From an uncultured Saprospiraceae bacterium (GTDB lineage: Bacteria > Bacteroidota > Bacteroidia > Chitinophagales > Saprospiraceae): a stretch of 45,282 bases of DNA. Position 1 is the stretch's first letter. The number at the start of each line of letters is the position of its first letter. The position numbers were made by a program, and so were the translations under genes. The stretch is taken from positions 1 to 45,282 of the forward strand of contig CAMZKG010000025.1 in assembly GCA_947311105.1 (NCBI GenBank). The letters run 5' to 3'. The notes beneath the pieces were generated by a model. It saw nothing but the letters and a program-made list of their open reading frames with translations, did not search any database and was not told the origin of the DNA. Shown here piece after piece: positions 15,049 to 20,646 of the stretch.

Positions 15049-15915
15049 ATGCTCCAAAACTACCTTTCCCTCATAAAGTTTAGCCATACTATTTTTGCGC
15101 TCCCCTTTGCATTGGTTGGTTTTTTTTTGGGGGTCATCTATACAGGTGGAGACATTCCGTTTGACAAATTAATCTATGTGATATTAGCCATGGTGTTTGC
15201 ACGCAGTGCCGCCATGGCTTTTAATCGCTATGCTGACCGCAAAATAGATAAAGCCAACCCTAGGACAGCCTCCAGAGAGATTGCCGCAGGGATTATCAAG
15301 CCCCAAAATGCCTTGATATTTATTATTATCAATGTCGGGCTTTTTGTGTTGGTCTCTTGGATGATCAATCCGTTATGTTTTGCGCTTTCGCCTGTGGCGT
15401 TGTTGGTTGTTCTTGGCTATAGCTACACCAAAAGATTTACGTCTTTAAGTCATTATGTACTGGGTGTTGGTCTTGCCTTATCTCCGATTGGAGCGTACCT
15501 TGCGGTAACGGGGCAATTCGCCTTAATCCCGATTTTATACAGCATTGTTGTCTTTACTTGGGTGGCAGGATTTGACATTATTTATTCGTTGCAAGATGAG
15601 CAATTTGACAAGTCCCAAGCACTCCATTCCATTCCGACTTTTCTAGGTAGTAAAAAGGCTTTGACACTTTCGACACTAACCCATGTACTCACCGCAGGAA
15701 TCATGACCTACGCTATCTACTTGACAGTCAACTCACTAGACCCAATCAACTGGATAACATGGCTTGGTGGCTTAGTCTTTGTCAGCTCACTAATCTATCA
15801 GCATTTAATCGTCAAACCCGATGACTTGAGTCGAGTCAATTTAGCATTTTTTACAACTAACGGAGTAGCGTCAGCTATTTTTGGGCTTTTATTCGTCTTG
15901 GATTATTTTATTTAA
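15049..15915 (+). CDS. UbiA-family polyprenyltransferase (4-hydroxybenzoate octaprenyltransferase-like / MqnP-like)
   Basis: KFSHTIFALPFALVGFFLG, AFNRYADRKIDKANPRTASREIAAG, DIIYSLQDEQFDK. Confidence 0.88.
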   Translation: MLQNYLSLIKFSHTIFALPFALVGFFLGVIYTGGDIPFDKLIYVILAMVFARSAAMAFNRYADRKIDKANPRTASREIAAGIIKPQNALIFIIINVGLFVLVSWMINPLCFALSPVALLVVLGYSYTKRFTSLSHYVLGVGLALSPIGAYLAVTGQFALIPILYSIVVFTWVAGFDIIYSLQDEQFDKSQALHSIPTFLGSKKALTLSTLTHVLTAGIMTYAIYLTVNSLDPINWITWLGGLVFVSSLIYQHLIVKPDDLSRVNLAFFTTNGVASAIFGLLFVLDYFI

Positions 15916-16779
15916 GCATCGTGCTTCAATCAAAGTACCCGTACTATTCAAATTAAAGCTATTGAGAATATGCAATGGGATTTTACCATCCTTTAAGGGT
16001 TGAATTGTCTTTTCATGTAAAATTCCGGCCCCAGATTTAGCGATGATTTCCGCTTCTTCAAAAGTTAGTTTTGGAATTAATTGTGCATCAGTATCTACAT
16101 TAGGATCTGCTGTAAAAATACCATCAACATCTGTGTAGCTTTCCACTCCCTTCACGCCAAGATATTTGGCTAACAAAGAAGCGGAATAATTACTCCCATT
16201 ACGCCCCAATGTCGTGGTAACATGGCTTCCGGTACTAGCCAAAAAACCTGTAACAACGGGAACTACCCCTTGCGGAAAAAACTCAAAATACCGCTTAGTC
16301 AAACACCTAGACAACTCGTCATAAATATTAGCTGAACCAAATAAATCATCTGTTATGAAAAAATGGCGGCTATCGACAAACTGCGTCGGCACTCCATTAT
16401 CATTTAATAAGCGGCTCACCACTAGAGCCGACAGTATTTCACCTTGAGCCAATAATAAATCTTTAGTCGCCTGATTATAACATCCCAACAACTTGGTTCT
16501 TTCCAAGATTGAGGCTATTTGTTCAAATATTCCATCATAGTTCCAGCCTAAAGAAGGAGCACATTGATAGTCTTTAAATGCCACAAAATCTTTTTGATAA
16601 TCTTTCATTTTTCTAGCTCTTTCAAGCATAGACCCTAACCAATCAGTGCTATCACCCCTTGCAGAAACCACCAAAGCGATGGCTTCTTCGTGCTTATATT
16701 TTGATTGAACAATGGAAATTACATTTTTAATTCCCTGCCCATTACCTAATGATTTTCCACCAAATTTTAATATTCTCAT
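15889..16779 (-). CDS. Aspartate kinase catalytic domain, apparently lacking ACT domains
   Basis: MRILKFGGKSLGNGQGIKNV, TTLGRNGSNYSASLLAKYLGV, TDVDGIFTADPNVDTDAQLIPKLTFEEAEIIAKSGAGILHEKTIQPL. The protein ends about 25 aa past this point. Confidence 0.85.
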   Translation of the reverse strand: MRILKFGGKSLGNGQGIKNVISIVQSKYKHEEAIALVVSARGDSTDWLGSMLERARKMKDYQKDFVAFKDYQCAPSLGWNYDGIFEQIASILERTKLLGCYNQATKDLLLAQGEILSALVVSRLLNDNGVPTQFVDSRHFFITDDLFGSANIYDELSRCLTKRYFEFFPQGVVPVVTGFLASTGSHVTTTLGRNGSNYSASLLAKYLGVKGVESYTDVDGIFTADPNVDTDAQLIPKLTFEEAEIIAKSGAGILHEKTIQPLKDGKIPLHILNSFNLNSTGTLIEARCLNKIIQDE

Positions 16780-16858
16780 TTGTTTTATTTTTTCCAACTG
16801 TTTCTTAGTACTAGCACTTTAGAGCTGCCCAATGACAAGAATAGCCCTAGAAGAACCG

Positions 16859-17863
16859 TTATAAAAAAAACGGAGCTAATATTCTATCTAGTTGTTCAAA
16901 TTCCATCAAAAAGGCATCATGCCCATGAATCGAATTAATCTCAAAATAATGATTCCGAATACCGACTTTATCCAGTATTACTTTTGTTTTAATATTTTCT
17001 TGACTTACAAAAAAAATATCCGTATCAATACCAATCTGAATAATTTCCGACTGCACAGGAGCCATCACATTTTCAAAAGAATCATCCTTTGCCACATCAA
17101 TATGAGACAACAAATGATTCATCATTTTATAAGCAAGCAACTCAAATCGCTCAGTCAAACGCTTACCATGATAATCCAACCAAACAGCTACTTCAAACTG
17201 CTGTTTGATGCTATTTTTTGAGCGCTTAAAACGTCTTCCTAAGGACTGTGGTGTCCTATAAAATAACATCGCCATCATCCGCGCATCCTGTAATGGTCGA
17301 ATAGAATTTTGGAGTATTTGTTCTTGTACACGATTGTGCCCTATAATCCAATCTGTTGATTTCCAATCTGTTGCAATAGGAATTAGATACTTAGCCAGCT
17401 TTGGTGCAAGTGCTGCCATTTCCCACACTATTCCCCCACCAAGGGAGCCGCCAAGCAACGCATGAATAGATTTTACATGCAATATTTCCAAAGTCCTAAT
17501 AAAAAGAAAAGCCACTTTTTTTGCTGTAAAGCACTGATAATCTTCAATCAACAAACCGTCATAACCATTTCCAGGAATATTAAAACTAATGACAGTCATC
17601 TTATCGGTATCAATGGTATGTTGAGCACCAATTAAGCTCGACCACCAGCCCGTTTTTCCTGCTACGTTGGAGTTTCCGGTAAGAGCATGTACAACGACAA
17701 CAACTGGCGCAGTATATAATGGCTGCCCAAAAATCTGATATGAAATGGAGACTACTCCTTCACCTGTCAGAATTGGTTGGTAGTATAAATTTAGCGAACG
17801 AGCAGACTCTATTGAAACAGAAGTCGTCGCTTGGGTTACTGTCAACTTATTTTTGTTTTTCAT
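16859..17863 (-). CDS. metX: Homoserine O-acetyltransferase (MetX-like alpha/beta hydrolase)
   Basis: VVVVHALTGNSNVAGKTGWWSSLIG, LLGGSLGGGIVWEMA nucleophile elbow, C-terminal IHGHDAFLMEFEQL. Abuts metY. Confidence 0.87.
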   Translation of the reverse strand: MKNKNKLTVTQATTSVSIESARSLNLYYQPILTGEGVVSISYQIFGQPLYTAPVVVVVHALTGNSNVAGKTGWWSSLIGAQHTIDTDKMTVISFNIPGNGYDGLLIEDYQCFTAKKVAFLFIRTLEILHVKSIHALLGGSLGGGIVWEMAALAPKLAKYLIPIATDWKSTDWIIGHNRVQEQILQNSIRPLQDARMMAMLFYRTPQSLGRRFKRSKNSIKQQFEVAVWLDYHGKRLTERFELLAYKMMNHLLSHIDVAKDDSFENVMAPVQSEIIQIGIDTDIFFVSQENIKTKVILDKVGIRNHYFEINSIHGHDAFLMEFEQLDRILAPFFL

Positions 17864-19141
17864 TTACAAATTAGTTTTGAGTGCCTGACGAATATCTTCT
17901 TTCAAATCTTCTATCTCTTCTAGCCCCACCGATAGCCTAATTAAATCCTGACTCACTCCAGATTTTAGCAAATCATCACTAGCCAATTGTTGATGAGTTG
18001 TACTAGCAGGATGAATAATCAAAGATTTTGTGTCACCTATATTAGCCAATAAGGAAAACAATTTTGTTGCATCTGTTACTTTTTGAGCAGCATCAAATCC
18101 CCCCTTCAAACCAAAGGTCACTATTCCACTCTGGCCTTTCGGCAAATATTTTTTGGCAAGTTGATAATAAGGACTTGAAGCCAAGCCTGGATAGTTTACC
18201 CAAGCTACTTCGGGCCTACTTTCTAGCCAGCGAGCCAATTCCAAAGCATTTTGACTATGTTTTAAAATTCTTAGTGGCAAAGTTTCTAATCCCTGAATTA
18301 TTTGAAAAGCATTAAAAGGAGACAAGGCCCCTCCATAATCACGTAACCCTTCAATTCGTAATTTTACTGCAAAGGCCGCTGCACCGAAGGCTTCGTGATA
18401 TACCAAACCGTGATACCCTGCATGCGGCTCTGTGAATTCTAAAAAGCGACCACTAGACCAGTCAAAAGTCCCCGCATCCACAACAATACCACCTAAAGAA
18501 TTACCTTGCCCCGCAATGTATTTGGTCAGGGAATGTATCACGATGTTTGCTCCATATTTAATTGGATTTAGTAATAAAGGTGATGGCACGGTGTTATCCA
18601 CAATTAAAGGCAGCTTATTTTGCTGTGCTATATTTGCAATCGCCTGAATATCAAGCACATCCAGCTTTGGATTGCCAAGAGACTCGATAAAAATCACTTT
18701 AGTATTAGGCAAAATAGCTTCCGAAAAAGACCCCGGATTATCTGGATTAACAAATGTAGTTGTTATCCCAAATCTCTTTAAAGTAACATTGAGCAAATTA
18801 AAAGTTCCCCCGTACAAACTATTTGAAGCGACGATATGATCCCCCGCCTTTAGAAGGGTCAACAAGCTTGTTGCTATCGCAGCGGCCCCCGAACTAAAAG
18901 CGACCCCCGCAATGCCTCCTTCCAGACTGCAAACTCTTTTTTCCAAAATATCAACCGTTGGATTATTGAGTCGAGTATAAATAAACCCTGGTATTTTCAG
19001 TGCAAAAACATCTGCGGCATGCTTGGTGTCTTCAAAGACATAAGATGTTGACTGATAAATAGGGACGGCTCTAGTAGTTCCTGTTTCGCTAGGATTATGC
19101 CCTGCATGAATAGCACGGGTACTTATATTTAAATGGTTCAT
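17864..19141 (-). CDS. metY: O-acetylhomoserine sulfhydrylase / Cys-Met PLP enzyme
   Basis: TRAIHAGHNPSETGTTRAVPIYQSTSYVFEDTKHAADVFAL, NPTVDILEKRVCSLEGG, HSLTKYIAGQGNSLGGIVVD. Confidence 0.93.
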   Translation of the reverse strand: MNHLNISTRAIHAGHNPSETGTTRAVPIYQSTSYVFEDTKHAADVFALKIPGFIYTRLNNPTVDILEKRVCSLEGGIAGVAFSSGAAAIATSLLTLLKAGDHIVASNSLYGGTFNLLNVTLKRFGITTTFVNPDNPGSFSEAILPNTKVIFIESLGNPKLDVLDIQAIANIAQQNKLPLIVDNTVPSPLLLNPIKYGANIVIHSLTKYIAGQGNSLGGIVVDAGTFDWSSGRFLEFTEPHAGYHGLVYHEAFGAAAFAVKLRIEGLRDYGGALSPFNAFQIIQGLETLPLRILKHSQNALELARWLESRPEVAWVNYPGLASSPYYQLAKKYLPKGQSGIVTFGLKGGFDAAQKVTDATKLFSLLANIGDTKSLIIHPASTTHQQLASDDLLKSGVSQDLIRLSVGLEEIEDLKEDIRQALKTNL

Positions 19142-19173
19142 TGTATTCGATTAAAAATTAAAATTGGATTTCA

Positions 19174-19216
19174 TTCAAAAAAAGTTCCTTTGACTAGGTA
19201 CTGCCAAAGGAACTTT
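19174..19216 (-). terminator. Attenuator terminator 2, upstream of metY
   Basis: Transcript AAAGTTCCTTTG-GCAGTACCTAGT-CAAAGGAACTTTTTTT: perfect 12-bp stem (19205-19216 / 19181-19192) plus T-tract. Confidence 0.88.
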
Positions 19217-19261
19217 AAAAAGAAAAACTTTTTACGAAAGTATCAATGTAGGCAGTACCTA
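19195..19261 (-). promoter_or_regulatory. Antiterminator pair 2 of the metY leader
   Basis: Transcript TAGGTACTGCC (19261-19251) is perfectly complementary over 11 nt to GGCAGTACCTA (19205-19195), which lies in the loop and stem edge of terminator 2. Confidence 0.8.
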
Positions 19262-19326
19262 TGCATTTGCATCATGTCCATAGACATCATCCAAGCAAAA
19301 AAAGAAATGCGAACGAGATGAATCAT
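19243..19326 (-). CDS. Met-rich leader peptide 2 (27 aa)
   Basis: ATG ATT CAT CTC GTT CGC ATT TCT TTT TTT GCT TGG ATG ATG TCT ATG GAC ATG ATG CAA ATG CAT AGG TAC TGC CTA CAT TGA = MIHLVRISFFAWMMSMDMMQMHRYCLH*. 7/27 Met; an internal ATG start (19290) is also possible. Confidence 0.78.
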   Translation of the reverse strand: MIHLVRISFFAWMMSMDMMQMHRYCLH

Positions 19327-19348
19327 TAATTTAAGTTTAATTTTAAGC

Positions 19349-19385
19349 AAAAAAAAAGCCTTTGTGTCTATCACAAAGGCTTTTT
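19349..19385 (-). terminator. Attenuator terminator 1
   Basis: Transcript AAAAAGCCTTTGTG-ATAGA-CACAAAGGCTTTTTTTTT: 14-bp perfect stem, 5-nt loop, 9-T tract. Confidence 0.88.
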
Positions 19386-19432
19386 CAGGAAACATGTCAA
19401 TCTAAAAACACGATACAAAAATGACCTTTGCG
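19372..19432 (-). promoter_or_regulatory. Antiterminator pair 1 of the metY leader
   Basis: Transcript CGCAAAGGUCAUUUUU (19432-19417) pairs with AAAAAGCCUUUGUG (19385-19372), the 5' arm of terminator 1, with a CA bulge and two G-U wobbles. Confidence 0.7.
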
Positions 19433-19485
19433 TAAGTAACCTTACTCATCATCATGTACATATTTTTGTATGTCGCTTGTTTCAT
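19402..19485 (-). CDS. Met-rich leader peptide 1 (27 aa)
   Basis: ATG AAA CAA GCG ACA TAC AAA AAT ATG TAC ATG ATG ATG AGT AAG GTT ACT TAC GCA AAG GTC ATT TTT GTA TCG TGT TTT TAG = MKQATYKNMYMMMSKVTYAKVIFVSCF*. Confidence 0.78.
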   Translation of the reverse strand: MKQATYKNMYMMMSKVTYAKVIFVSCF

Positions 19486-19489
19486 GGGG

Positions 19490-19523
19490 CAAATATAGGA
19501 TAGTTTATTTTTAAATGCTCAAA
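19490..19523 (-). promoter_or_regulatory. Candidate promoter of the metYX-AK leader transcript
   Basis: TTTG (19523-19520), 22-nt spacer, TATATTTG (19497-19490), just upstream of leader peptide 1. Confidence 0.65.
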
Positions 19524-19743
19524 AAAGATTGGTTTTAACAAAAAAACTTTTGAGTCCACTCCGAAAAGTCAATATGCATTTTGATTTGGTTTCAGTTAAA
19601 CAACAATTGATGAATGTACAATTGAACGAAAATAGATTATTTTTGTAATTAACGTATTATTTTTGTTTAAATATGTTAAACACAAGTAATAGAGCGTTGA
19701 TTTTGGCATAATTTTTAAGCTTATACCGCATCAAATACATACC

Positions 19744-20646
19744 ATGAAGAAGACACTAACAAAAACACTGCTTTTAATTCTTTTTTCGAGCATTTCTTTT
19801 TTTGCGCAAGCGACACCACCAGATACTGTACGTACTGCTATAAAGGTAGGTATCGTCAAAGAATACTGCGTTGACACGTCAAATTTTGCAGGTACAATGT
19901 CCAGTTTGGAAGACATCTGTGATGGTTCATCTGGCACAGCCGTAAATTTTATTTTATTACCGACTACCTTTTGTGTTAGTTATGGCGGGCTAGAACTGGG
20001 CACCGAATCAAGCTGTCTAGTATATTGTGATGATACAGGACTCTGCGATACGACCGTTTTAGTGGTGACTATTGTGCCAGATTCTGTTTCAACCCTGCCG
20101 GCAATAGCCGTAGATGATTATTTAGAGACTATCCAAAACTCATCAGTTATCCAAAATATCCTTGAGAATGATTTATTGCCCAACAATGGGGCATTTACGA
20201 GTCTGCGCATCATTAATCAGGGAAATAATGGAAGTGCAGGCATCAATCAAGACGGCATTCTCACCTATACACCTAATCCAGACTTTTGTGATGCAATAGA
20301 CACTTTATCCTATGAAGTCTGCAATATTGTCTCCTGTGATACTGCTAGTATCTATATAACGGTAGCTAAATGTCTCAACATTGACGGGCTATTTGTGTAT
20401 GATGGTTTTTCGCCAAATGGTGACTTTGTCAACGATTTTTGGAAGATATTGGGATTGGAAGACATCCCCGACCACCATATCTATGTCTACAATAGGTGGG
20501 GCAATCTTGTTTTTGAAGCAAAAAACTATCAAAATGATTGGGACGGCAAATGGGACGCAACACCTTTAACGACAGGGACTTATTTTTATATAATTGATGA
20601 TGGGAAAGGAATAAAACAAACTGGTTACGTACAAATTTCATATTAG
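19744..20646 (+). CDS. Gliding-motility-associated C-terminal (T9SS type B) domain protein
   Basis: Signal peptide; VYDGFSPNGDFVNDFWKILGLEDIPDHHIYVYNRWGNLVFEAKNYQNDWDGKW...TYFYIIDDGKGIKQTGYVQI. Confidence 0.9.
   Translation: MKKTLTKTLLLILFSSISFFAQATPPDTVRTAIKVGIVKEYCVDTSNFAGTMSSLEDICDGSSGTAVNFILLPTTFCVSYGGLELGTESSCLVYCDDTGLCDTTVLVVTIVPDSVSTLPAIAVDDYLETIQNSSVIQNILENDLLPNNGAFTSLRIINQGNNGSAGINQDGILTYTPNPDFCDAIDTLSYEVCNIVSCDTASIYITVAKCLNIDGLFVYDGFSPNGDFVNDFWKILGLEDIPDHHIYVYNRWGNLVFEAKNYQNDWDGKWDATPLTTGTYFYIIDDGKGIKQTGYVQISY

Follow-up and report, generated by a model that had tools for sequence, protein, structure and literature searches.

Most accounts of bacterial methionine regulation invoke SAM riboswitches, Met T-boxes and repressors, and we know of only scarce documentation of leader-peptide attenuation in Bacteroidota. 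Leader-peptide attenuators have been described for other amino acids, including Trp, His, Leu/Ilv, Thr, Phe and Cys (PMC1262725, PMC2965389, PMC8632094). Polycysteine leaders are represented by leaderless sORFs in mycobacteria (Canestrari 2020, as cited in PMC13236596), by the cys leaders of Actinobacteria (PMC1262725) and by the cysS uORFC-8-2 of Rhodobacterales (PMC8632094). The accessible main text of an RNA-seq study of Flavobacterium psychrophilum reports 'strong clues' that amino acid operons are preceded by leader-peptide attenuators (PMC9723704). The preliminary description of the locus considered here had proposed a possibly undescribed Met attenuator; this holds for the open-access literature searched, in which no bacterial 'methionine leader peptide' was found, but subscription papers and supplements lay outside the search and an earlier comparative-genomics report remains possible.

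The window (the whole 45,282-nt stretch that was analysed, from an uncultured Saprospiraceae bacterium) carries two 27-codon Met-rich leader ORFs in series upstream of metY, each with an antiterminator arm and an intrinsic terminator. Every element of the preliminary description was recovered on the minus strand, base for base, in the 5' to 3' order promoter, ORF1, terminator 1, ORF2, terminator 2, metY. The promoter (19490–19523) is of the Bacteroidota type, with TTTG at 19523–19520, a 22-nt spacer and TATATTTG at 19497–19490. Leader ORF 1 (19402–19485; MKQATYKNMYMMMSKVTYAKVIFVSCF) has Met at codons 9, 11, 12 and 13, with orthologs in 14 or more Saprospiraceae and in L122. Its antiterminator 5' arm (19417–19432) consists of CGCAAAGG (19432–19425) and UUUUU, and the partner is AAAAAGCCUUUGUG of terminator 1; the duplex (−13.4 kcal/mol, z −2.4) co-varies among orthologs. 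Terminator 1 (19349–19386, −18.9 kcal/mol) has a stem of 15 pairs, one of them a basal G-U, at 19386–19352, followed by T9. Leader ORF 2 (19243–19326; MIHLVRISFFAWMMSMDMMQMHRYCLH) has Met at codons 13, 14, 16, 18, 19 and 21; its start is inferred from orthologs, because an in-frame ATG also lies upstream at 19395, just before terminator 1. Each window leader contains a single Cys, outside the Met cluster. The module 2 arm AGGUACUGCC (19251–19260) occupies leader 2 codons 23–26, directly before the stop, and pairs with GGCAGUACCU (19196–19205) to give a duplex of −21.1 kcal/mol (z −4.1), the best of all 39 terminators considered below. Terminator 2 (19177–19216, −18.2 kcal/mol) has a 12–14-bp stem at 19216–19181 and T7. 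The arm had been thought to pair with the terminator; the duplex is indeed present, but the 3' arm comprises the end of the 5' stem plus the loop, so that pairing is mostly with the loop and reaches no more than one or two bases into the stem. The neighbouring upstream gene (19744–20646, plus strand) is divergent, and neither terminator therefore ends an upstream gene.

The genes downstream of the leaders serve methionine synthesis. metY (17864–19141, minus strand, ATG at 19141) encodes O-acetylhomoserine aminocarboxypropyltransferase, or homocysteine synthase (TIGR01326, 623 bits, cut-off 495). It is followed on the same strand by a metX-like homoserine O-acyltransferase gene (16859–17863) matching PF00561 and TIGR01392 (E 8e-48), which at 163 bits against 500 scores below the MetX equivalog cut-offs, and by an aspartokinase gene (15889–16797; TIGR00657, 228 bits against a cut-off of 209). 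The latter matched only PF00696 and no ACT regulatory domain in the domain search, leaving a bare catalytic domain; it overlaps tail to tail by 27 nt (15889–15915) with a UbiA prenyltransferase gene on the plus strand (15049–15915). This metY is absent at E ≤ 1e-100 from all four other genomes of the genus (G026, G131, G540 and G541), and operon and leader are therefore patchy within the genus.

The position of the promoter bears on how the first leader is translated. In the window, TATATTTG lies 4 nt ahead of the ORF1 ATG. TAnnTTTG or TAnnnTTG is found 4–25 nt before this ATG in about ten orthologs overall: the distance is 4 nt in L001, L006 and L185, 6 nt in L122, and 9–25 nt in L186, L012, L011, L192, L187 and L121. 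The predicted transcription start coincides with the leader 1 AUG or immediately precedes it, and leader 1 is thus inferred to be leaderless or nearly so and probably translated from the 5' end or very near it.

Conservation was assessed in the 600 nt upstream of metY orthologs, with a Saprospiraceae-family set of 18 comprising the window and sequences of 63–74% identity. Leaders rich in Met/Cys codons are present at 17 of these 18 orthologs, nearly all followed by terminators, and in 15 they are tandem (L001, L006, L008–L013, L185–L189, L191 and L192; module 1 of L010 was recognised by eye). The remaining members have one leader (L190), one poly-Cys leader (L184) or an S-box instead (L007). 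Tandems also occur in L122, from another family of the class, in Puteibacter (L051) and in the genome of L121, and one or two modules are found at three Flavobacterium-like loci (L054, L117 and L120), with weaker cases at L045, L047 and L049. An unguided detector run over both strands of 123 loci returned 39 matches; every one precedes metY and lies on its strand. The distance from stop to terminator is fairly constant, mostly 20–32 nt in 39 modules, and the conserved parts are the in-frame Met/Cys codons, the arm and the terminator. Judged from sequence alone, such modules are not unique to the window genome: they extend through Saprospiraceae, Flavobacteriaceae and Puteibacter, with a related design in SAR202 Chloroflexota. 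There, six metY loci of SAR202/Dehalococcoidia type have Met/Cys leaders ending in HMMCCVMGSCMT before the stop, with a terminator ~20 nt downstream of the leader. Separately, the three Flavobacterium-like loci have a second small ORF, with an ending like HKSLLFQMYALEEEDLFA and seemingly conserved, between the leader terminator and metY.

Further comparative evidence concerns pairing between leader and terminator. Of the 39 modules, 38 show it: the last ~10 leader codons, or the bases flanking the stop, form a duplex with the next terminator, on its 5' arm or loop; for module 2 of L121, the duplex test found no convincing pairing of this kind. Mean duplex energy is −14.0 kcal/mol for cognate against −9.5 kcal/mol for non-cognate combinations (Mann-Whitney p = 1e-14), and leader tails outscore their own shuffles (mean z = −2.35). 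When tails were reassigned to terminators at random within class 1 or within class 2, none of 20,000 permutations did as well as the real pairing in either class. Three-way covariation is seen in both modules: at several 5'-arm positions whose base varies between genomes, the tail and 3'-arm partners change along with it, as mutually exclusive hairpins predict. In module 1, for example, genomes with C instead of U at column 2 or 3 carry G instead of A on both partners, while the loop pairs of module 2 exchange C-G for U-A and G-C for A-U (tail/loop pairs AGGUACUGCC/GGCAGUACCU in the window, UGGUAUUACC/GGUAAUACCA in L186 and GUAUUACUA/UAGUAAUAC in L012). In several relatives, too, the main partner of the module 2 arm is the loop of the terminator and not its stem. 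Conservation of Met-rich ORFs and alternative pairings, set beforehand as a test that could have refuted the proposal, was thus borne out. The permutation test is the stronger evidence, because the covariation count is limited to pairs reported by the duplex program; MAFFT did not align the spacers reliably, and pair counts rest on per-sequence duplexes and the permutation test, without a covariance model. The sequences are phylogenetically related, and the p-values overstate their independence. In the window, the module 1 tail pairs equally well with terminator 2 (−13.4 kcal/mol).

How a ribosome would act on these pairings was explored by folding with a ribosome assumed to cover −15 to +12 relative to the A-site codon. 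With a ribosome stalled at the Met codons, the antiterminator arm is predicted to be free in both modules, as originally proposed: in leader 2, stalling at Met codons 13, 14, 16, 18 or 19 gives an antiterminator probability of 1.0 before the 3' arm is made, and a ribosome at the stop gives 0.0 for the antiterminator and 1.0 for the terminator. Masking of the arm by a ribosome at the stop is therefore supported for module 2; it fails for module 1 of the window, where the arm remains uncovered and the antiterminator has a probability of 0.92. Leader 1 stops soon after the arm in orthologs (GGC ACT ATT GTA TAA in L008), whereas its window tail reads GTC ATT TTT GTA TCG TGT TTT TAG: the ancestral stop has been lost and the leader runs ~three codons longer, leaving module 2 as the only one in the window with a fully classical geometry. 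When no ribosome is present, upstream leader RNA takes up the module 1 arm in part (antiterminator 0.43), and termination after ribosome release is therefore possible. On this folding model, module 1 either depends on release and refolding or is partly decayed, and may be leakier. At full equilibrium, terminator 2 still prevails in most stalled states (0.5–0.7); the switch must therefore be kinetic, as in known attenuators.

We regard it as very probable that two serial ribosome-mediated transcription attenuators of the classical trp/his type tune this met operon by the supply of charged Met-tRNA. Three of the features expected of a classical attenuator are present: an ORF with codons for the end product upstream of the operon, an intrinsic terminator before the first gene, and a co-varying, mutually exclusive antiterminator. 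The reading also draws support from the S-box, a regulator already known for this pathway, which relatives carry at this place and the window's genome lacks. With plentiful Met, a ribosome trailing RNA polymerase would pass the Met codons and reach the stop (module 2) or be released (module 1); the antiterminator arm would be masked or refolded locally, the terminator would form and transcription would stop. When Met-tRNA is short, the ribosome would stall at the Met cluster upstream of the arm, leaving it free to pair with the emerging terminator 5' arm or loop, and polymerase would enter metY. Because two gates in series both have to be passed, leakiness would be multiplied, giving lower basal expression and a sharper response. 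This model joins elements, conservation, in-frame codon content and mutually exclusive, co-varying pairings that are directly observed to leader translation, stalling, read-through, a Met response and a two-gate benefit that are inferred in the absence of expression, Term-seq or Ribo-seq data. A further consideration counts against it: AUG is also the start codon, so that Met shortage hits initiation and elongation alike, and starvation would also reduce initiator fMet-tRNA and hence leader translation, a puzzle in its own right.

An alternative that is unlikely, yet survives best, is that the leaders act mainly on translation, or via Rho and coupling between leader and metY, as proposed for mycobacterial polycysteine leaders, with the hairpins secondary. 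It draws on mycobacterial cys operons that are controlled by polycysteine leaders without clear terminators (PMC1262725; Canestrari 2020, via PMC13236596), and on the S-box plus poly-Cys leaders of other Saprospiraceae, which usually have no intrinsic terminator. At the loci studied here, however, 39 modules have strong T7–T9 terminators at a fairly constant distance after the stop, with co-varying arm pairing, and leader 2 ends ~100 nt upstream of metY.

That the RNA is an unrecognised SAM or Met riboswitch binding its metabolite directly, with the ORFs incidental, is very improbable. It gains some plausibility from the fact that the locus is shared with S-box riboswitches of relatives: the S-box stands at the same place upstream of metY in many Flavobacteriaceae and in one Saprospiraceae genome (RF00162 confirmed by Rfam for L007, L036 and L044; other S-boxes called by the TTAGCAACC core). 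No Rfam family, riboswitches and T-boxes included, matched at the gathering threshold anywhere in the window, however, and identity as a SAM-I riboswitch (RF00162) or Met T-box was rejected on this basis; Rfam also gave no match at this place in leader-bearing relatives, no S-box was found in the window's own genome, and the modules have no aptamer-like conserved core. Furthermore, drift between ATG and TGY codons among leaders alters the RNA sequence but keeps the sulfur amino acids.

Leader and S-box appear instead to replace each other. A quick tree of 58 metY sequences, in which the window occupies a long branch, requires six changes between leader and S-box; well supported branches force no fewer than four of them. 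We consider it likely that undescribed Met/Cys-codon attenuators, typically two in series, are widespread, control the direct-sulfhydrylation Met operons of Bacteroidota (with the related design at SAR202 Chloroflexota metY) and repeatedly swap with SAM riboswitches. If so, the same operon would have switched in evolution between sensing charged tRNA and sensing SAM. Nine loci with a metY type of ~50% identity, from other Saprospiraceae, show a further arrangement, in which a SAM riboswitch and a Cys leader stand in series before metY, usually without an intrinsic terminator; the Cys run lies directly before the stop, for example MMCCCCCCCC. Orthologous operons with tandem leaders or S-boxes, and this more distant metY type with S-box and poly-Cys leader, constitute a natural experiment, in which a cell's choice of tRNA charging over SAM as the signal becomes a directly testable question.

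Codon content bears on what is sensed. ATG/TGY codons fall in the leader frame and the two other frames in a ratio of 331:118:14, which argues for selection on codons and not on a DNA repeat. The Met clusters on which Met sensing had been proposed are conserved, but in most relatives Met and Cys codons are mixed (for example MNFIKMNMMCCCMCKK): typical module 1 leaders are MNFIKMNMMCCCMCKKPYATGSLC and MKIRNNNMMCCMMCKEIYAKGTIV, typical module 2 leaders MFRSINICCCMEMCMMMYVTQRYCPD and MNTFSSIQFTTNNMMQMMQMMMRIMQWYYLY, and the window and, largely, L186 are Met-only. The class would then sense sulfur amino acids, with the window a Met-only version whose response to Met is untested. It was considered whether Cys codons are kept where assimilatory sulfite reductase is present; this was rejected, since the leader-bearing genomes tested have no PF01077 match, with or without Cys codons in their leaders, and only the S-box genome G110 has one; no sulfite reductase domain match was found in the window's genome. 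Nor is the leader tied to absence of sulfite reductase as a general rule: the leader-bearing Flavobacteriaceae-type genomes G214, G250 and G394 have a match, and the S-box genome G283 has none. Seven loci in other Saprospiraceae carry poly-Cys leader ORFs, often two in series and each with an intrinsic terminator, before a nitrite/sulfite-reductase-like gene (recognised by sequence, without a family search). Leader:terminator pairing is weaker there, and the same arm geometry is not claimed.

As improbable as direct metabolite binding is a function of the Met/Cys-rich peptides in their own right, for example as micro-proteins that bind metal or arrest peptides that sense it, responding to copper or redox rather than to Met supply. 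A precedent exists in another system, where the accessible text describes a nascent exported protein that senses copper via translational control (PMC9973294), but in the leaders only a loose Met/Cys cluster is conserved, without constraint on its spacing or order, base pairing dictates the C-terminal part, and composition tracks the downstream pathway, Met-only in the window as against Cys-rich before sulfite reductase.

The remaining possibility was examined with dinucleotide shuffles of 19142–19560, in which a module was defined as at least four clustered Met codons plus a terminator. Within 18900–19900, terminators 1 and 2 are the only ones found, with 0.5 expected from shuffles. The same detector revealed no further Met-leader module elsewhere in the window on either strand, and no leader was found at the genome's own metH (L195) or at two other PLP-enzyme loci, in a scan that did not extend to the whole genome; an MMCCC pattern match at L161 does not resemble a leader, as no terminator follows it. 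The least credible reading is that two ordinary terminators stand in chance or decayed sequence: the region is AT-rich, slippage can create ATG-rich stretches and the geometry of window module 1 is degraded, but none of 600 shuffles yielded even one module where the real sequence has two, and conservation with covariation across orthologs of many genera has, as far as sequence comparison can, already refuted it for the class.

Two serial attenuators reading charged Met-tRNA can be set against the known systems. Like the enterobacterial classical attenuators (trp, his, leu, thr, ilv and phe), the metY leaders combine an ORF with regulatory codons, an arm 2 at the ORF end and an antiterminator opposed to an intrinsic terminator, in an operon that makes the sensed amino acid. 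Unlike that set, they would sense Met (with Cys added in relatives), form two serial modules, belong to Bacteroidota, are probably leaderless and have a module 2 antiterminator that largely pairs with the terminator loop. With the polycysteine leaders they share a ribosome that would sense sulfur amino acid codons, with the mycobacterial ones a probable leaderless start and with uORFC-8-2 the intrinsic terminator; the polycysteine leaders differ in being Cys only, in preceding other genes and in having a single module, with no Met specificity reported in the accessible texts, and the window leaders contain no Cys run of the mycobacterial kind (a Cys-codon run in a leaderless sORF). The SAM-I riboswitch occupies the same upstream position at the same gene in L007, L036 and L044, but binds SAM directly and involves no leader peptide, and the window has no match to its family model. 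The F. psychrophilum report concerns the same phylum, but its main text, as far as accessible, mentions neither methionine nor tandem leaders nor Met/Cys specificity (PMC9723704). A Met peptide attenuator that reads charged tRNA would thus add an amino acid specificity not found described: the working principle would be that of known ribosome-mediated attenuation, and the specificity, the serial architecture and the lineage would, within the open-access literature, be new.
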